64,000 nt of DNA from assembly GCA_944323255.1 (NCBI GenBank), contig CALURU010000008.1, positions 1-64,000 of the forward strand, given 5' to 3'. The translations under genes and the position numbers were made by a program. Position 1 is the stretch's first letter, and every line of letters starts with the position of its first letter. Shown here one piece after another: positions 34,758 through 63,210 of the stretch. The stretch comes from Candidatus Gastranaerophilales bacterium. GTDB lineage: Bacteria > Cyanobacteriota > Vampirovibrionia > Gastranaerophilales > Gastranaerophilaceae. The notes below the pieces were generated by a model. That model saw only the letters and a program-made list of their open reading frames with translations. It was not told the origin of the DNA and made no database searches.

Positions 34758-35924
34758 ATGAAAAATGTTACAAAGGATTATCAAGAAGCATTAAACTCAA
34801 AAGTTTTGAAATGGAGTACTAATTCTGGAGTAACATATACAGATTTGAGCTATAACACTTTAATGACACAAAACAGTACCAACAATGGAAATCCATACCT
34901 TGTAACAAACCTAAATGGGAAAGTTATAGTCAATGGGGCCTATAAAACTTATGCTGAAATGATTTCAGCAGATGGTGCCGCTGGTGGAGACTATGAATCA
35001 GTAAGAACAGAAATTCTCTCGAGCGTTTGCGGCATATCCGAAGACAAAATTAATAACTCTGTTACAACAAACGAAGCACTTAATACTTCCGCAGAAAAAG
35101 TTAATACTCTAAAAGAGGAAGTTGCTATAGCACTTGATAAATGTAGCAATAAAAGTAGTGCTACTGATTTTATGAAATTATTTGGTGAAATTCCTGCAAA
35201 ATATGACTGGGACAGAAACGAGACAAATAATTTGGGCTATAGCTATGAAGATGGTGCCAATACATCAAGTGGTTCTTATCACATTATCTTAGACACTCAA
35301 GATCCCAATACAGCAAAGCAATTAAGTGATGAATTATTCGAAACATTCAAAACAAATGCGAAAAATTATTTAACAGAAGACGATTACGAAGCATTTGTAA
35401 CTGCTTGTGATCAAACTAAAACTGAGTATAGAAATTATATAGATGCTTTTGAAGCCGGATACTACGCTTGTGGAGATGATAAAAGCAGTGTTCTCGATCA
35501 GTACGGAGTTGATATATCTAAAAGAGATAGTAACTCCGATATTTCAGATGGTGTATATATAGTAAGAATTAACAACCTTATGGACAATCTAATGCGTAAC
35601 TATGAAAGTGCTGGGGACAGTACAACTACTGGAACTGTAAATTCAAATACTACTTATTATTACACTGTAGATAGAAACAGTGAAGAATACAAAACATATG
35701 AAGCAAAACAAGCTGAATTAGATGCTGCAAAGGAAGAATATGACCAAGCAGTAGACACTGATAATCAAGCGTTAACAGCAACTGAAGAAAGCCAAATTGC
35801 TTTTTATGATAAGATTTTTACAGCAATAGCAGATAATGGTTGGGAATATAATTCACAAATAGATGATAATGATTACTTAAACCAAATGCTACAGAACAGG
35901 GATATTGAGATAAGGAAAATTTAA
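34758..35924 (+). pseudogene. Hypothetical protein truncated by the long repeat
   Basis: 388 residues, soluble, no signal peptide, with a helical middle and a Glu/Ala-rich coiled segment (EYKTYEAKQAELDAAKEEY). Family not recognised. The last nine or so residues (about NRDIEIRKI) and the stop codon come from the left end of repeat copy C, so the natural C-terminus is gone. The N-terminus also looks incomplete: the ATG lacks a ribosome site and abuts a palindrome, and the opening sequence starts mid-helix. Confidence 0.55.
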
Positions 35925-41248: not shown

Positions 41249-42603
41249 TTCCCGAAGAATTAGAAGTAAAAATAGAAAAGCTTTCAAATATGGGGCTCGG
41301 TATTGCAAAAGTTGACGGGTTTGTAATTTTTGTTGAAAACTCATGCCCCGGAGATTTTGCAAAAATCAAAATTTATAAGAAAAATAAGCATTTTGCATTT
41401 GCTAAGATTACAGAACTTATACAACCTTCACCTCAAAGAGTAGAGCCGTTTTGCCCGATGCAAAAAGTATGCGGCTCATGCCAGCTTCAGTTTATAGATT
41501 ATGATTATCAGCTTGTATTAAAACGGGAAATCGTGAAAGACGCCATGCGCTCAATAGGCGGAGAGGAGTTTGAAGTAAGAGAGGTTATTCCGAGTCCGCA
41601 AATTAGAAATTACAGGCACAAAATTCAATATCCTATAGCGCAGACAAAGAATTCAAAAAGGATTCTTGCCGGTTACTACAAGCCTTCAAGCCATGAAATC
41701 GTAAATATAAAATACTGTCCGATTCAGCCTGAAATTTGTGATAGGATTATAGAATTTATAAGAGAAGAAGCTCAAAGACTAGGTATTTCCGGATATGACG
41801 AAAAATCTCATACGGGTATCCTCCGGCATGTAGTGATGAGAGCTTCCAATTATTCGGGGAAAGTTCTTGTTGTTTCCGTAATTAATTCGAAAAAGCTTCC
41901 TGAAAATGTAAGAAAGCTTTCAGAAAAAATATCTGATAAGTTTGACGAAGTATCAGGGGGAAGTGTTAATTTTAATACAAGGAAAACAAACCTGATTCTT
42001 GGAGAGAAAACCCAAAATATTTGTGGTCAAGATTATATAGAAGAGAAACTTTGTGAAAAAATATTTAAAGTTGGGGCTAAGACTTTTTTTCAAGTAAATC
42101 CTACAAGTGCTAATAATATTTTTGAGTATGTAAAAAAATATATTGGTGAGAATTTTGAATCGCCTGTCATTCTCGATGCTTATGCCGGAATTACAGCGTT
42201 CGGGATTGCACTCTCGGATATAGCTAAAAAAGTTGTAAGCGTGGAAGAAGTTAAAGAGTCTGTTGATTTGGCAAAACAAATAGTTAAGGAAAATAATATT
42301 AATAATATTGATTTGTACAATATGGATGCGGGTGATTTTTTTAGAAAACAATTAGATAAATACGGTAAAAGCTTTGACGTAACAGTATTAGACCCGCCGA
42401 GAAAAGGGTGTACAAATGAATCTCTTGATTATGCTTTAAAATTAACTAAGCACAAAATAATCTATGTTTCCTGCAATCCTGCAACACTTGCCAGAGATTT
42501 AAAGTATTTAAAAGAAAAAGGCGCAAAAGTTGATTTTATCCAGCCGTTTGATATGTTTCCTCACACTTATCATATAGAAGATGTTGCTGTTATAAATGTT
42601 TAA
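41236..42603 (+). CDS. rlmD: 23S rRNA (uracil-5-)-methyltransferase, RlmD/RumA family
   Basis: 455 residues. The N-terminal TRAM domain (about 5-60) is followed by the iron-sulfur cysteines (FCPMQKVCGSCQLQ, and a fourth Cys in KYCPIQP). The C-terminal SAM methyltransferase has FFQVNPTSANNIF, LDAYAGITAFGIAL, LDPPRKGCTN (catalytic and ligand residues) and YVSCNPATLARDL. It makes 5-methyluridine in rRNA or tRNA; exact position not determinable. Coupled to the exonuclease gene by overlap. Confidence 0.9.
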   Translation: MQAVIPEELEVKIEKLSNMGLGIAKVDGFVIFVENSCPGDFAKIKIYKKNKHFAFAKITELIQPSPQRVEPFCPMQKVCGSCQLQFIDYDYQLVLKREIVKDAMRSIGGEEFEVREVIPSPQIRNYRHKIQYPIAQTKNSKRILAGYYKPSSHEIVNIKYCPIQPEICDRIIEFIREEAQRLGISGYDEKSHTGILRHVVMRASNYSGKVLVVSVINSKKLPENVRKLSEKISDKFDEVSGGSVNFNTRKTNLILGEKTQNICGQDYIEEKLCEKIFKVGAKTFFQVNPTSANNIFEYVKKYIGENFESPVILDAYAGITAFGIALSDIAKKVVSVEEVKESVDLAKQIVKENNINNIDLYNMDAGDFFRKQLDKYGKSFDVTVLDPPRKGCTNESLDYALKLTKHKIIYVSCNPATLARDLKYLKEKGAKVDFIQPFDMFPHTYHIEDVAVINV

Positions 42604-42637
42604 ATGTAAAATTTTGTAAATATTGTCATAAAACTCC

Positions 42638-42664
42638 TAAAGTTTTTTCTAATCTTGCCGATAT
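42638..42664 (+). promoter_or_regulatory. Sigma-28 (FliA) type promoter
   Basis: TAAAGTTT at 42638-42645, exactly 11 bases, GCCGATAT at 42657-42664. This matches 15 of 16 positions of the flagellar late-gene consensus TAAAGTTT-N11-GCCGATAA. Transcription would begin near 42670, 30 bases before the ATG at 42700. The same type of site stands before the gene at 57365. Confidence 0.85.
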
Positions 42665-42699: not shown

Positions 42700-43368
42700 A
42701 TGAGTGGTTTTTCAGTAAATGATGCTATGGCTAAATTAGGCATATACAAGTCTGAAGCGGAAGCTTTAGATGCTATGGATGGCAAGAAGGATGGAAAAAT
42801 TTCCAAGGATATTTTTACGCAGGCACAGGAAGCCTTAACTAATGCAGAAGCCATGTACAGCGAAGACAATGCAGACGAAGCTCTGGATATGTCTAAATGG
42901 TCTGATGTTGCAAAAAATATGGCAAGAACAATTACGCAGCGTATGGGTATCGGAGGCTTTATATACAGCAGCAATAAAAGTGAAGATTTCCAAACGAAGA
43001 TGGACGAAGATACATTAGAATCTGCACATGAAGATATGGATGAATTAGCAGGAGAGGCTGCTGATTATATTGCAGAGCATAAAACTTTAGAGGGTTTTAA
43101 ATTTAAAGGTGTACCTAATGGAGTTACTAATATTAAAATTAACGTAGATGACTATTACGGTAATAGTGAAAACGATGTGATTTCTTTTGATTCAGATGGT
43201 AAAGCTGTTGTAGAAAAGGTTATAGATGGTATTTCTATAGAAATACATTATACCTACAATGGAAACGATTATGCAATGGGTGCAGTTGTTGAAACTGAAG
43301 ACGAATCAATGGCTAATAAAGAGATTGCACAAGCAGAATCCGGACAGAGTAAGATGAGTACTCAATAA
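42700..43368 (+). CDS. Hypothetical protein of the putative sigma-28 regulon
   Basis: 222 residues, acidic, soluble, no signal peptide or membrane segment. Near residue 25 DAMDGKKDGKIS resembles a degenerate calcium-binding loop. The middle is helical (about 35-120) and the C-terminal part beta-like with a Ser/Gln-rich tail. No family recognised. ATAGGAGAA gives a sound ribosome site. The sigma-28-type promoter predicts co-expression with flagellar late genes; export through the flagellar apparatus is possible but unproven. A terminator follows. Confidence 0.7.
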   Translation: MSGFSVNDAMAKLGIYKSEAEALDAMDGKKDGKISKDIFTQAQEALTNAEAMYSEDNADEALDMSKWSDVAKNMARTITQRMGIGGFIYSSNKSEDFQTKMDEDTLESAHEDMDELAGEAADYIAEHKTLEGFKFKGVPNGVTNIKINVDDYYGNSENDVISFDSDGKAVVEKVIDGISIEIHYTYNGNDYAMGAVVETEDESMANKEIAQAESGQSKMSTQ

Positions 43369-56574: not shown

Positions 56575-56744
56575 ATTATTCCCCTTCTGTTCGGATATGT
56601 TTAAGATTTATTCAAATTCCTTCCCTGTCTACACTTTACCCAATTATACAATAAAAAAAAGATATGAAAATGTAAAGATTTGTAACAATTATATACTAAA
56701 TATGTTACTAATATATAAAAATGTGGAATAATATATATATAATC

Positions 56745-56815: not shown

Positions 56816-56847
56816 TTTTGTATATATTTAACGTTAGGAGGTAGAGT

Positions 56848-57093
56848 TTACGCAGCTTCCTCTGTACATACATATTTAGCAGATTTTGCAACAACACCGT
56901 AGCATACCATCGTTAATCTGTTGTTCAACGCAAGCATTGTTCGGAAATTGTTTGCTGACTGGTTCATAGCACTCATAATATCGTCTGCTGATACTCTCGA
57001 TACAAGTGCTCCTTCTTCGTGATTATCAACTTTTTCCTGTGCATATTTTTCTACTAATAACTTGTCAATAAAATCTCTTGCTCCGATTGCCAT
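56848..57093 (-). CDS. Small hypothetical protein under a shared promoter element
   Basis: 81 residues, mostly helical, no signal peptide (MAIGARDFIDKLLVEKYAQ; C-terminal LTMVCYGVVAKSAKYV hydrophobic helix). No family recognised. Ribosome site TAGGAG. It has a leader of about 100 bases that can fold into a GNRA-capped hairpin, and further upstream the element shared with the gene at 50600. It is divergent from the large protein at 57365. Confidence 0.6.
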   Translation of the reverse strand: MAIGARDFIDKLLVEKYAQEKVDNHEEGALVSRVSADDIMSAMNQSANNFRTMLALNNRLTMVCYGVVAKSAKYVCTEEAA

Positions 57094-57134
57094 AATTAAA
57101 TACTCCTATATAATCTTATGTAATACTCTCACTT

Positions 57135-57195
57135 TAAGACAGAATAACCTGGCACCTCTAAAGCTTACGCTCTATGGTTTTTAGCTCTCTTTCTT
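57135..57195 (-). promoter_or_regulatory. Structured 5' leader of the 56848 gene
   Basis: On the minus strand AAAACC is followed by TAGAGC GTAA GCTTTA (a hairpin with a GNRA tetraloop), then GAGG and CCAGGTT. The AACC/GGTT flanks can pair around the hairpin. The layout recalls one half of a GEMM-type leader, but a second helix is not seen. Confidence 0.3.
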
Positions 57196-57198
57196 AAA

Positions 57199-57262
57199 TA
57201 TCTCTTATGTATATATAAAGTATTTAACTTTAAAAAAATTGACTTTTTTGTTAGCCTTTGTA
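57199..57262. repeat. Conserved intergenic element, copy 2
   Basis: Second copy of the element at 50869-50935, upstream of the minus-strand gene 56848 and facing the plus-strand gene 57365. Confidence 0.65.
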
Positions 57263-57291
57263 AAGTTTTGTAAAAATGATTTATAAAAATC

Positions 57292-57318
57292 TAAAGTTAT
57301 ACAAAAATATGCCGTTAT
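57292..57318 (+). promoter_or_regulatory. Sigma-28 (FliA) type promoter
   Basis: TAAAGTTA at 57292-57299, exactly 11 bases, GCCGTTAT at 57311-57318 (13 of 16 consensus positions). It lies 46 bases before the ATG at 57365 and matches the site before the 42700 gene. Confidence 0.78.
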
Positions 57319-57364
57319 AAGTAAATGTATAACTATGTTAAAAATACTTTTAAAGGAGTTTGAT

Positions 57365-60300
57365 ATGAGTCTGAACGTTGATGCAAGTGAAGTGTTAGCA
57401 CAAGCAAAAGCCCGTCAGGAAGCTGCCATAAGAGCAAAAGAAGAAGCTGAAAAGGCAAAAACGGATGCTGCAGCAAAAGATGCGGAGGCAGCGGCATTAG
57501 CCGAAAAAGAAAGTTTGGAGGCAACAGAAGCGGCTGCTGCGGCAGAAAAAGAGGCTGCAGAGGTTGCTGCAGCACAGGAAAAAGTGAATTCTGCAAACGT
57601 AAGAGTAACATCTGCACAAGCGGCGTACGCAAATGCCTGTTCTCAATTGAATTCAGCTCAAGGTCAACTAAATTCTGCAAAAGCGAGTGGGGACGAAAGT
57701 GCAATTGCAGCAGCAGAATCGGCTGTTAATAGCGCAAAGGCTGCCGCTGAAAGAGCTTATCAAGAATTACAGACAGCACAGCAAGAAGCTGAAACTGCAC
57801 AAAAAGAGTTAGAAAAAGAAACTACTGAGGCAGAAGATGCAAAGAAGAAGGCAGAACTTGAAAAAACTGAGGCAGAAAAGGCTGCAAAAGAGGCAGAGGC
57901 TGCAAAAAATGAATTAGCTGAAGCTGAAACTGTTTTAGCAGATGCTGCTAAAGAACTGGAAGCTGCGAATGCAGCAGTTAGTGAAGCAGAAGCAGCTGTA
58001 GAGGCAGAAGAAGCAAATGCCGCAAATGAGACGGAAGGTGTACAGGAAGCAGAACATTTGTCCCAAGAAGAGATTGATAAACTTGTCCAAGAAGAAGGAT
58101 ATACATACATAACTTCTAAAGATCAATTCTTAGAAATTTTCCAAAATGGCGGAATTGATTTAAATGGAAGTTATATTCTCGGATGTGATATAGATTTAAG
58201 TGAAATTGAAAATTGGCAGCCGGTCGGTGATGAGGTAAATCCGTTTACCGGCGTGTTTAATGGTAACGGATATTCGATAGATAATTTGACAATTAATGTG
58301 GAAGATTCTAATGCTGAAAATGTTGGTTTCTTCGGAACTACTGTGAATGCTGAAATTTCTAATGTCAATTTTACAAATGCTTCAATTGTAACTCCAAGTG
58401 ATTTTATTAATGGATCTTCTTCCGTAGGTATAGTTGCCGGAACTGCAAGAGGAACTTCGTTTGATAATATTACTATTTCAGGAGATGTTACGGGCTACGA
58501 AAGTGTTGGCGGCATGGTAGGTGTTATTAATGATAATTCTTATTATGATGCCAATGAAAATTATATAGAAGTAGGAAATAGTTCAATCTCAAATGTTGAT
58601 ACTTCTGTAGATGCAAGCGGTAAATATTATGTTGGTGGTTTGGTAGGCTCTATCGAGGGTACAGAGGTTTTAGACGGTGTTGCAACAAGAGATTTGGTGA
58701 TTTCAAATTGTAATACAAGCGGAGATATTGTATTTGATGAAGAATCTGCAGGCGGTTTAATAGGTGAGGCGGGTAAAACCGTTGTAACAATTACAAATAG
58801 TGAAAGTAATGTAAATTTAACCTGGAATAATACAGAAAATGACGGTGATATATCATTTCTTATGGAGACTGGCAGAGCCGGTGGTTTTATTGGTTGTGCA
58901 AATGGTACATATATTGCAATTTGTAATTCTGAATACAACGGAAATCTTGATGTTGAAGGTGATTTCAAAGGTGAATGGTACGGATGGTACATGAATGATG
59001 CTCATGTTACAACATACGAAATCCCGGGCGGGCTGCCTGTTGACGATATTTTAAATATTGAGGGAATCGATGCTCTAGAACCTGTAACAGATCCTTCAAG
59101 CGGTATTTCTCATTATGAAGTTACGGTAAGTACACTTACCGGTCTGGACAAAATGGTTACAATGCTGTATGAAAATCCGGCTCTGGCAGAGATGATTACT
59201 TTTAATGTAAATTTTGATTTTGAAGCTATGGACGGAATGTATGACAGCTCGGTATATGCGCAGTATGGTGTTACGCAGCATTTGTACGAGGATGAAGAAG
59301 GAATTGTACATAATGATGTCTATATTGATAATGAAATTGATCTGGAGACAACATTTCATAATGAACAGAAATCAAGTTCTTCTTCAACTCCTGTAACTTC
59401 TGTAACTTCTGTTCCGCTTAAAGAAACTATGGTATCAGGTTTATATAAGGATGAGGAGGGCAAATATGTAGTTATAGCAAAGGATATGTCAATAGTCGAA
59501 GCTAATATGAGCTTTAACTATGATAATCAGGTTACGGATGTTACAAAGCGCCTTCAAACTGATGAAGTAAGATTCCGTGAGTATATTACTGATATGGTTA
59601 AATACTATCAGAGTAAAATGAACGAAGCAATAAAAGCCTTGTTTGAAATTGCAGAAAATAAAGAGATTACTGTTCTTAATAAGGCTGAGTATAAGAAACT
59701 TATTAAAATGCAAGAAGCCGGCATGGAATTATCAAATGAACAAAAGGCTGCAATTGCTCTTTATGAAGTAGATTATCAGGTTATGAATTTAGTTGCAGAA
59801 ACTACGCATAATAAAGGCTGCGGCATGGGCGGAGATGCATCATTCCTTGATGAGACAACTGCTATTCAAATGTTTGATGACGCAGGCAGACCTCTGTTTA
59901 CAACTCTAAATGGTGATCAGTTGCGTCAGAGAATGGATGAGGAAGGCAATCTTATGACAGATGATGAGGGTAATCCTGTATATGAAAATCTTGACGGCAG
60001 TGATTATACAGGTTTAGCAGAAGTCTTTGCTCAAAGAGGTTATCCGGTGACGGATGAAGAAGGTAATTTCTTATATACAGATAAAGACGGTAATAGTGTA
60101 ACAAAATCGACAGATGAAGAAGGAAATACTATTTACACTAATGCCGACGGAACTGCTTATGAGGGTGCGGAAGAAGATTTGACGCAGCAGTTAGAGCCGT
60201 TTGATATTTCAGAAGAATATAAGTCTCTTGAAAATGAAATGAAAGATCTTTTGGATGATGTCGAGTCAGGTAACTATGGGGGTACTCCGCTTGATAATGC

Positions 60301-60370
60301 CGTAGCGGAAGATAATATTGAAACAGCTGTTCAAGAAGAATTGAAAGAAGAGCTGAAAGACAAAATATAA
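57365..60370 (+). CDS. Large coiled-coil and GLUG-repeat protein of the putative sigma-28 regulon
   Basis: 1001 residues from the ATG at 57365 (TAAAGGAG at ideal spacing; an upstream in-frame ATG lacks one). Residues about 15-228 are an Ala/Glu/Lys-rich coiled coil. Residues about 290-515 hold GLUG-type beta-helix repeats (GVFNGNGYSIDNLTI, VGGMVGVI, YYVGGLVGSI, AGGLIGEA, AGGFIGCANG). Residues about 857-933 contain short repeats of the form (D)DEEGNxxYxxxDG. There is no signal peptide, membrane helix or beta-barrel end. GLUG repeats are typical of surface adhesins, so a secretion route is needed; the flagellar gate genes lie 1 kb downstream. Function unknown. Confidence 0.8.
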   Translation: MSLNVDASEVLAQAKARQEAAIRAKEEAEKAKTDAAAKDAEAAALAEKESLEATEAAAAAEKEAAEVAAAQEKVNSANVRVTSAQAAYANACSQLNSAQGQLNSAKASGDESAIAAAESAVNSAKAAAERAYQELQTAQQEAETAQKELEKETTEAEDAKKKAELEKTEAEKAAKEAEAAKNELAEAETVLADAAKELEAANAAVSEAEAAVEAEEANAANETEGVQEAEHLSQEEIDKLVQEEGYTYITSKDQFLEIFQNGGIDLNGSYILGCDIDLSEIENWQPVGDEVNPFTGVFNGNGYSIDNLTINVEDSNAENVGFFGTTVNAEISNVNFTNASIVTPSDFINGSSSVGIVAGTARGTSFDNITISGDVTGYESVGGMVGVINDNSYYDANENYIEVGNSSISNVDTSVDASGKYYVGGLVGSIEGTEVLDGVATRDLVISNCNTSGDIVFDEESAGGLIGEAGKTVVTITNSESNVNLTWNNTENDGDISFLMETGRAGGFIGCANGTYIAICNSEYNGNLDVEGDFKGEWYGWYMNDAHVTTYEIPGGLPVDDILNIEGIDALEPVTDPSSGISHYEVTVSTLTGLDKMVTMLYENPALAEMITFNVNFDFEAMDGMYDSSVYAQYGVTQHLYEDEEGIVHNDVYIDNEIDLETTFHNEQKSSSSSTPVTSVTSVPLKETMVSGLYKDEEGKYVVIAKDMSIVEANMSFNYDNQVTDVTKRLQTDEVRFREYITDMVKYYQSKMNEAIKALFEIAENKEITVLNKAEYKKLIKMQEAGMELSNEQKAAIALYEVDYQVMNLVAETTHNKGCGMGGDASFLDETTAIQMFDDAGRPLFTTLNGDQLRQRMDEEGNLMTDDEGNPVYENLDGSDYTGLAEVFAQRGYPVTDEEGNFLYTDKDGNSVTKSTDEEGNTIYTNADGTAYEGAEEDLTQQLEPFDISEEYKSLENEMKDLLDDVESGNYGGTPLDNAVAEDNIETAVQEELKEELKDKI

Positions 60371-60388: not shown

Positions 60389-60410
60389 GGCACCTGCTTT
60401 AGCAGGTGCC
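60389..60410 (+). terminator. Hairpin terminator after the large protein
   Basis: GGCACCTGCT / AGCAGGTGCC perfect 10-bp stem with a two-base loop. The following T-run is weak (GTTTGT). Confidence 0.7.
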
Positions 60411-61383: not shown

Positions 61384-62142
61384 ATGAATTGGTCAAATTT
61401 AAGGAAATGGGGATTTTTTCTGTTTGCCTTTTTGTTAATAAGTGTACCTGCACATGCTGCAATGTCATTTCCTAATATAAATATAGGGTTACAAACGGCA
61501 AATACTCCGCAGGATTTTACAAACGGGCTGCAAATTTTAATCTGGTTAACAATATTAACGCTGGCACCGAGTATATTAATAATGACAACTTCTTTTGTAA
61601 GGCTTGTTGTAGTTTTGTCATTGACAAGACAGGCTCTTGGAGCCGGTACTTTACCCCCAAATCAGGTTATTACAAGTTTAGCTTTAATATTAACTTTTTT
61701 TATAATGGCGCCAACTTTTAATGAAATTAATGAAAAGGCACTGCAGCCTTATATGCAAAATCAAATTACTCAGCAGGTTGCTTTGGATAGAGGAATTGCG
61801 CCAATTAGAAACTTTATGTTTAAGCAAACACATGAAAAGGAGTTAGCTTTGTTTGTAAGAATGGCAAAAATAGAAAAACCGAAAAATAAAGATGATGTGC
61901 CTACATATGTGCTGCTTCCTGCTTTTATTTTAAGTGAATTGAAAACGGCATTTACTATAGGGTTTGTTGTGTATTTGCCGTTTTTGGTAATAGATATTGT
62001 AGTTTCATCCGTTTTGGTGTCAATGGGTATGATGTTTTTGCCTCCGACTATGATTGCTTTACCTTTCAAGTTGATAATGTTTGTTATGGTTGATGGTTGG
62101 TATCTGGTTGTTAAGTCGTTGGTGGAAAGCTTTGTTAAGTGA
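61384..62142 (+). CDS. fliP: Flagellar export gate protein FliP
   Basis: 252 residues. N-terminal signal sequence (about 1-25, ending AHA) as in other FliP, four membrane helices, and the family blocks LTLAPSILIMTTSFVRLVVVL, LGAGTLPPNQVI, PAFILSELKTAF and DIVVSSVLVSMGMMFLPP. FliP forms the pentameric core of the flagellar type III export gate. AAAGGA serves as ribosome site. It heads fliP-fliQ-fliR. Confidence 0.96.
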   Translation: MNWSNLRKWGFFLFAFLLISVPAHAAMSFPNINIGLQTANTPQDFTNGLQILIWLTILTLAPSILIMTTSFVRLVVVLSLTRQALGAGTLPPNQVITSLALILTFFIMAPTFNEINEKALQPYMQNQITQQVALDRGIAPIRNFMFKQTHEKELALFVRMAKIEKPKNKDDVPTYVLLPAFILSELKTAFTIGFVVYLPFLVIDIVVSSVLVSMGMMFLPPTMIALPFKLIMFVMVDGWYLVVKSLVESFVK

Positions 62143-62155
62143 GGTTTGAGATATT

Positions 62156-62431
62156 ATGAATCAGGATGTAGTTATAACGCTTTTACAAAAAATGTTTATA
62201 TTAACCTTGGAAATATCTGTTCCAATTTTGTTAGTTGGTGTAGTACTTGGTTTGCTTGTCAGTATTTTTCAAACAGTTACTCAAATACAGGAATCAACTC
62301 TAACCTTTGTGCCGAAAATTGTTGGTTGTGTATTGTTGTTGATTTTTTTAATGCCATGGATCTTCAGCATATTTATAACTACTGTTAATGAATTTATGGA
62401 TATGATACCACAGTTAATCGGCGGAGTATAA
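62156..62431 (+). CDS. fliQ: Flagellar export gate protein FliQ
   Basis: 91 residues, two membrane helices: VPILLVGVVLGLLVSIFQTVTQIQE and a second from about residue 52. Normal length. FliQ packs around FliP/FliR in the export gate. It begins 13 bases after fliP and its stop codon overlaps the fliR ATG. Confidence 0.95.
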   Translation: MNQDVVITLLQKMFILTLEISVPILLVGVVLGLLVSIFQTVTQIQESTLTFVPKIVGCVLLLIFLMPWIFSIFITTVNEFMDMIPQLIGGV

Positions 62432-63210
62432 TGTTCAACCTTGATGTATTATTTTCAACTGCTAATATAATTTTATTTATGGCAATTTTTACAAGGTTGT
62501 CAGGTTTGTTCATGTCAGCGCCGATATTTTCAACGTACCCTATTCCTATGCAGGTTAAAATCTGGCTTGCTGCAACAATTGCGTTTATTCTGTTTCCAAT
62601 TGTTCAGTATAATACGGCATTTACAGCTCCTAATTCAGTGCCGGCACTTACAATAATATTATTAAAAGAATTTTTTGTCGGATTTGCTATGGGGTATTGT
62701 GCAAATATCATATTTGTTGGAATTGAACTCGGGGTTAATATGTTTGCAATTCAGATGGGATTATCTGCGGATCAGGCTTTAAATCCGACCTCAGGCGGAC
62801 AGTCACCGGTCATAACGCAGGCTTATACGTATCTTGCAACAATGTTATTTATCGCCTTAGGTGCGCATCAATGGCTTTTTTCTGCAATTTATAACAGCTT
62901 TAAAACATTACCTGTTGGTTATACTTTTATATTTTCGCCAGAACTTGTCGGACATATAGTGAGCATTTCTGCGCAAATGTTTAGTATCGGCTTGAGTATT
63001 TCTTTGCCAATATTTGGTATTTTGTTTATAACAGATGTTCTGCTGGGGTTTACTTCTAAAATGATGCCTCAAATGAACATTTTTATGGTCTCTTTGCCTT
63101 TAAAAATTTATTTAGGTTTGCTGCTTTCTTTAATTTTTATGCGCCCGACGGCAGAATATATTACTGTATTGATTGAACGTTTTATGGAGCACATAGCTTT
63201 CTTATTTTAA
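62431..63210 (+). CDS. fliR: Flagellar export gate protein FliR
   Basis: 259 residues with about six membrane helices. Signature regions are FTRLSGLFMSAPIFS, ELGVNMFAIQMGLSADQALNPTSGGQSP and the C-terminal LTSKMMPQMNIFMVSLPLKI-like segment (here GFTSKMMPQMNIFMVSLPLK). It completes the FliP5Q4R1 export core. flhB and flhA, which often follow, are not next; the neighbour is an unrelated membrane protein on the other strand (4-base overlap). Confidence 0.95.
   Translation: MFNLDVLFSTANIILFMAIFTRLSGLFMSAPIFSTYPIPMQVKIWLAATIAFILFPIVQYNTAFTAPNSVPALTIILLKEFFVGFAMGYCANIIFVGIELGVNMFAIQMGLSADQALNPTSGGQSPVITQAYTYLATMLFIALGAHQWLFSAIYNSFKTLPVGYTFIFSPELVGHIVSISAQMFSIGLSISLPIFGILFITDVLLGFTSKMMPQMNIFMVSLPLKIYLGLLLSLIFMRPTAEYITVLIERFMEHIAFLF

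Follow-up and report, generated by a model that had tools for sequence, protein, structure and literature searches.

In Campylobacter jejuni, the Feds and FspA are encoded by sigma-28-dependent non-structural genes, and the Cia proteins are non-flagellar proteins exported via the flagellar type III system (PMC9856085). Both FliA-driven non-structural proteins and their flagellar export are already known. In cyanobacteria, HLR1, the site of the response regulator RpaB, has the consensus (G/T)TTACA(T/A)(T/A)NN(G/T)TTACA(T/A)(T/A) (PMC11633204). Non-photosynthetic Melainabacteria retain RpaA, RpaB and NblS, which 'may have another function' (Di Rienzi et al. 2013, PMC3787301).

The window, which is the whole stretch of 64,000 nucleotides analysed, covers positions 1–64,000 of the forward strand of contig CALURU010000008.1 of a Candidatus Gastranaerophilales bacterium (GCA_944323255.1). 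The gene under study, its regulatory elements, the second promoter and gene described below and fliPQR all lie on the + strand. The ORF and its orthologues define a coding sequence at 57365..60370, which starts at ATG 57365 and encodes a Sec-less modular protein of 1001 aa. The ribosome binding site AAAGGAG is located at 57352..57358, and AAGGAG-like sites occur at the equivalent start in the orthologues. A sigma-28 (FliA-type) promoter, TAAAGTTA-N11-GCCGTTAT, is located at 57292..57318. Directly 3′ of the stop codon is a perfect G+C-rich hairpin without a strong T run (60389..60410), which judged from its sequence may be the transcript end of a monocistronic unit. The genes fliP, fliQ and fliR of the flagellar export gate occupy 61384..63210 (NCBIfam TIGR01103, TIGR01402 and TIGR01400), with the FliQ score slightly below the TIGR01402 cut-off. 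Elsewhere in the window, a 388-aa Sec-less ORF at 34758–35924 has no family and a regulon-like style, without a clear upstream sigma-28 site. A stretch of 428 bp at 56847–57274 that spans an 81-aa ORF is identical to positions 266–693 of contig 4 of the same genome (G000:C4:266-693), and is either a duplication or an assembly artefact. Its 3′-end coincides exactly with an HLR1-like box.

The promoter matched the E. coli sigma-28 consensus at 13/16 positions and the consensus of its own genus at 15/16. The 13/16 score alone is not significant, since 64 kb of shuffled sequence contain about 1.6 sites of this quality; the site is significant because it is conserved across orthologues. The search of 97 related genomes yielded 17 full-length orthologues and one cut at a contig end (19 with the own copy), all from one genus of Candidatus Gastranaerophilales. 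The sigma-28 site was present in 19/19 orthologues at 31–56 bp upstream of the ATG, always with a spacer of 11 nt. Conservation was 1.75 bits/position in the boxes, 0.96 in the spacer and 0.67–0.92 in the flanks. The start codon equivalent to ATG 57365 was kept in the orthologues, with similar ribosome binding sites. Across its many contexts, the gene is accompanied by its promoter. The 13/16 match with an 11-base spacer reported in a preliminary description of this DNA is thus a real site, backed by all orthologues. The same architecture had been described at another position of the window, and the sigma-28 site there (42638–42664) is also real and departs from the E. coli consensus at one position. 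By consensus match it forms a second composite promoter (42603..42664) with HLR1-like boxes at 42603–42620, and by its promoter and N-terminus the 222-aa Sec-less gene that follows (42700..43368) is the second regulon member in the window.

The promoter has a −35 box TAAAGTTT, an 11-nt spacer and a GCCGATAA-like −10 box, and the genome encodes FliA, by which this promoter would be used. The FliA gene (C2:44505) scored 232 bits with TIGR02479 (cut-off 189.6) and was the sole FliA above the cut-off in the own genome. With the genus consensus and a maximum of 0/1/2 mismatches, this genome has 4/20/36 sites, where 0/0/3.5 were expected. Spacers of 8–10 and 12 nt gave 0 sites in the stretches examined, and spacers of 13–14 nt gave 2–3 sites at two mismatches. 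All same-genus genomes contained 3–34 sites each (reversed control 0–3), and such sites were rare outside the genus.

In the own genome, 30 distinct promoters were each located 24–144 nt upstream of a gene, and nearly all precede lone genes encoding Sec-less orphan proteins. The regulon includes one flagellin, one GAF/HD protein and several proteins with EF-hand motifs; most members have no known family. Of the regulon proteins, 0/30 have a hydrophobic N-terminus; among 243 other genes the share is 23% (Fisher p 0.001). The first 25 residues of the regulon proteins are enriched in Q, G, S and N. The GAF/HD protein is presumably cytoplasmic, so a gene under FliA control need not encode an exported protein. 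Among the flagellin genes of the own genome, most are without the sigma-28 site that one of them carries. A protein family with N-termini like MGMSASQARLLSLQAR ('SASQAR'), some members of which are sigma-28-driven, was seen at the loci L080, L084, L072 and L099. The flagellar (FliA-type) control proposed in the preliminary description is strongly supported by the orthologue conservation and this genome-wide regulon. So far as literature and database searches show, a regulon of this size is new for gut Melainabacteria.

Tandem TGTAA boxes precede the promoter. The TGTAA-N5-TGTAA of the window (57259–57263 and 57269–57273) ends 18 nt upstream of the −35 box and lies within a match, in reverse complement, to the HLR1 (RpaB) consensus of cyanobacteria at 57257..57274. 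In the 50 nt preceding each of the 30 regulon promoters, TGTAA occurred only at a distance of 18 nt (24/30) or 28 nt (20/30) to the −35 box; the pairs were spaced by N5 in 23/23. The strict HLR1 consensus was matched in 20/30 regulon promoters, each match ending 17 nt before the −35 box. The 64-kb window contains only three strict matches (0.0 expected), two of which are at its two sigma-28 promoters; the third, HLR1-like as well, is at 56669–56686 without a sigma-28 site. Among the orthologues of the 1001-aa protein, the proximal box was kept in 16/18, at 17–18 nt from the −35 box. With at most one mismatch, TGTAA-N5-TGTAA-N18-TAAAGTTT occurred in all same-genus genomes searched (8–32 sites each, control 0–1). 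The full composite promoter was also found in a sister family at the same tolerance, with controls near zero.

The own genome encodes four OmpR-family regulators, among them an RpaB equivalog on contig 13 (C13; NF045944, 356 bits, cut-off 330). The match of the boxes to HLR1 suggests that RpaB may bind them. TGTAA boxes are missing from two promoters of the own genome, those of the flagellin and the GAF/HD protein, which suggests two classes of FliA promoter. Among papers containing both HLR1 and flagell-, none was by its title on an HLR1–flagella link, and the rigid setting of HLR1-like boxes before FliA promoters is new as far as our searches show. Its genus-wide occurrence offers a concrete and testable candidate for the function of RpaB in these bacteria.

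The AF2 model of the protein was built with 17 sequences (pLDDT 81). From N- to C-terminus, it contains an antiparallel helical hairpin with two helices of about 100 residues each (residues 7–213, 57383..58003, pLDDT about 83), a GLUG-type beta-helix (residues 245–550, 58097..59014), a conserved alpha/beta domain (residues 570–720, 59072..59524), a helical segment (residues 732–814, 59558..59806) and a beta-repeat module, 'TDxDGNxVxxxxDExGNxxYTxxDGxxYxGxxxDL' (residues 843–946, 59891..60202). The model and the GLUG structure matches agree with the coiled coil and beta-helix of the preliminary description. The weak Pfam match of the coiled coil to TPR_MLP1_2 and its PDB matches to SipB, keratin and tropomyosin were taken for noise of the kind that coiled coils produce. 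In structure comparison, the beta-helix matched 3n6z (Z 29.9, rmsd 2.7, 257 aligned residues) and the GLUG domains of IgA1 proteases (Z 23–26, including 7uvk with Z 26.2), and the sequence profile also matched 3n6z (E 2.3e-9). The earlier naming as a GLUG-repeat protein holds for the fold, but neither the whole protein nor the beta-helix alone reached the threshold of the Pfam Glug motif PF07581; 'GLUG-type' therefore refers to fold and homology only. No close solved structure was found for the alpha/beta domain. For residues 540–968, no convincing solved structure appeared in the Foldseek (best E 0.017) and VIA (best Z 4.7) lists, a result compatible with a known fold.

The protein has no hydrophobic N-terminal segment, LPXTG, HExxH or RTX motif, and the AF2 model contains no barrel, in agreement with the earlier statement that signal peptide, LPXTG and autotransporter barrel are absent. 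A longer N-terminus with a hidden Sec signal, which had been named as an observation that would speak against the earlier proposal, is excluded unless transcription starts elsewhere, because the orthologues keep the start and the promoter leaves no space. An IgA-protease-like enzyme was rejected, as HExxH is absent. The C-terminal tail is poorly conserved among the orthologues.

The nearest relatives of the beta-helix in the own genome lie within genuine flagellins composed of Flagellin_N, Glug and Flagellin_C. Identity to the own-genome beta-helices was 34–44%, and four of these sit inside flagellins (36–44%). The 1001-aa protein itself was rejected as a flagellin, since Flagellin_N and Flagellin_C were absent in the Pfam search. 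An HMM of residues 893–946, run on 822 ORFs gathered for this study and so a non-random set, matched only the orthologues, sigma-28-driven coiled-coil paralogues and FlgL (E 4.9e-13 for the own FlgL). No paper was found with 'GLUG' together with 'flagellin', and the sharing of the GLUG and FlgL-type modules is, to the extent of our searches, new. Because very large proteins of 4000–6000 aa also contain GLUG beta-helices, the beta-helix alone is no proof of an export route. The own genome has 13 Flagellin_N matches. Those of its flagellins in which a GLUG beta-helix separates Flagellin_N from Flagellin_C are 555–595 aa long (L135, L137 and L139; contigs 17, 7 and 34), and another is split by a frameshift or an assembly error (L140/L141, G000:C1:178227-179326). 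On contig 28, a flagellin-type ORF exceeding 1000 aa has RTX-like GGxGxD repeats following Flagellin_N (L169, G000:C28:1-3044).

The position of the gene next to the export gate was part of the earlier argument. The fliP, fliQ and fliR genes are confirmed, but they adjoin only 6/19 orthologues; one orthologue is directly behind flgL, one is about 5 kb from a flagellin and the others are elsewhere. The suggested check for orthologues beside flagellar genes thus gave many contexts, the adjacency argument is weak, and we rejected it as evidence for flagellar export because the context is not conserved.

The protein could instead be a substrate of a second, non-flagellar-type gate, which FliA and the RpaB-like boxes would now serve. 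This gate consists of SctQ-like, FliO-like and SctRST-like (FliP/Q/R-like) genes on contig 12 (L110, G000:C12:30000-49900) and a second FlhA/SctV-like gene on contig 4 (L168, G000:C4:1-8200). The second FliP/SctR, with its SctQ-like neighbour and the second FlhA/SctV, was found in nearly all genomes of the order searched. A ~490-aa ORF on contig 28 (L169 4023-5489) also has a partial FHIPEP match (positions 321–655) and is not a full FlhA. The genome G070 of a sister family keeps the second-gate operon and has 12 composite promoters, most of which precede Sec-less genes, although neither flagellin nor a flagellar FliP was detected in it, only a short FliP. From this genome, a flagellum does not seem to be required for the regulon as a whole. 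The G070 assembly is 87% complete, so a loss of flagella in it is likely, short of proof; flagellins are present in G073, of the same genus. G070 has no direct bearing on the 1001-aa protein, of which no orthologue was found in it. The orthologues found are confined to a genus whose searched genomes all have flagellin, and the protein shares domains with flagellin and FlgL, both flagellar substrates. We consider export through the second gate unlikely, though the strongest of the alternatives.

It is more doubtful that the protein stays in the cytoplasm and is merely co-expressed with the motility genes, for example as a scaffold whose coiled coil forms an arm. Cytoplasmic proteins do occur in FliA regulons, the GAF/HD member being an example here, and the 1001-aa protein carries no standard export signal. 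Its beta-helix, however, is of a type known from surface proteins and the own flagellins, and its C-terminal module is common to FlgL, an extracellular protein. Another Sec-independent route, by type I or a system of another kind, followed by anchoring on the cell surface, would suit the surface-type domains, and a classical anchor is absent. There is no RTX motif, the C-terminal tail varies as noted above, FliA control and the domains shared with flagellar proteins point elsewhere, and type I secretion is absent from published gut melainabacterial genomes (PMC3787301). Such a route is very improbable.

Of the possible routes, flagellar export has the best support, as the protein has two parts otherwise known from flagellar substrates and C. 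jejuni offers a precedent for accessory secretion dependent on FliA. The lack of a standard export signal, the flagellar sigma control and the filament-protein domains make export by the flagellar machine probable. From the conserved promoter, the regulon, the FliA and RpaB genes, the Sec-less N-terminus and the kinship of its domains with flagellin and FlgL domains, we infer the export, final location and function of the protein as follows. The gene would be a late flagellar-class accessory gene, whose promoter would be read by RNA polymerase with FliA. An RpaB-like OmpR-family response regulator on the tandem TGTAA boxes probably modulates the promoter. The Sec-less product would most likely leave the cell unfolded via the flagellar type III apparatus, and the beta-helix and C-terminal module would fold outside. 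The protein may then be shed, or remain at the filament or close to it as an adhesin-like accessory. We give this combined account, a FliA-dependent, RpaB-modulated, type-III-exported accessory protein of the flagellum that is filament-associated or shed, an even chance of being correct. The flagellar secretion or filament association of the preliminary description gains from the flagellin- and FlgL-related domains, while its adjacency argument is weak and a second gate exists. More tentatively, the ancestral light/redox regulator RpaB may have been rewired in these uncultured gut relatives of cyanobacteria to act with FliA at one rigid composite promoter, driving 20–30 Sec-less proteins that leave via one of two type III machines and include this GLUG protein, built from domains of the bacterium's own filament proteins.

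Should export be confirmed, gut Gastranaerophilales would possess large orphan proteins that form a flagellum-linked secretome and could mediate contact with the host or other microbes, together with flagellins displaying beta-helices. The regulon may also answer what the cyanobacterial light regulator RpaB does without photosynthesis. As in cyanobacteria, RpaB is encoded and the tandem boxes fit the consensus in reverse complement; here, unlike there, the bacterium is a non-photosynthetic gut inhabitant and the boxes keep a constant distance to the FliA promoters downstream of them. Compared with the IgA1 protease GLUG domains and the Bacteroides structure 3n6z, the protein has the same beta-helix fold (Z 23–30), whereas it lacks HExxH and a Sec signal and stays below the Pfam Glug threshold. 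It shares a related beta-helix (36–44% identity) with the GLUG flagellins of contigs 7, 17 and 34 (C7, C17 and C34), but has a helical hairpin and another C-terminus in place of Flagellin_N and Flagellin_C. With FlgL (HAP3) of the same genus it shares the C-terminal beta-repeat module, and no further FlgL part was found in it. The likeness to the Feds, FspA and Cia of C. jejuni is one of regulatory logic, sequence relation being outside the claim: a non-structural gene would be under sigma-28-type control, and its product would be exported. The system described here differs from the Feds in its regulon of about 30 genes, its large modular protein and its extra tandem box.
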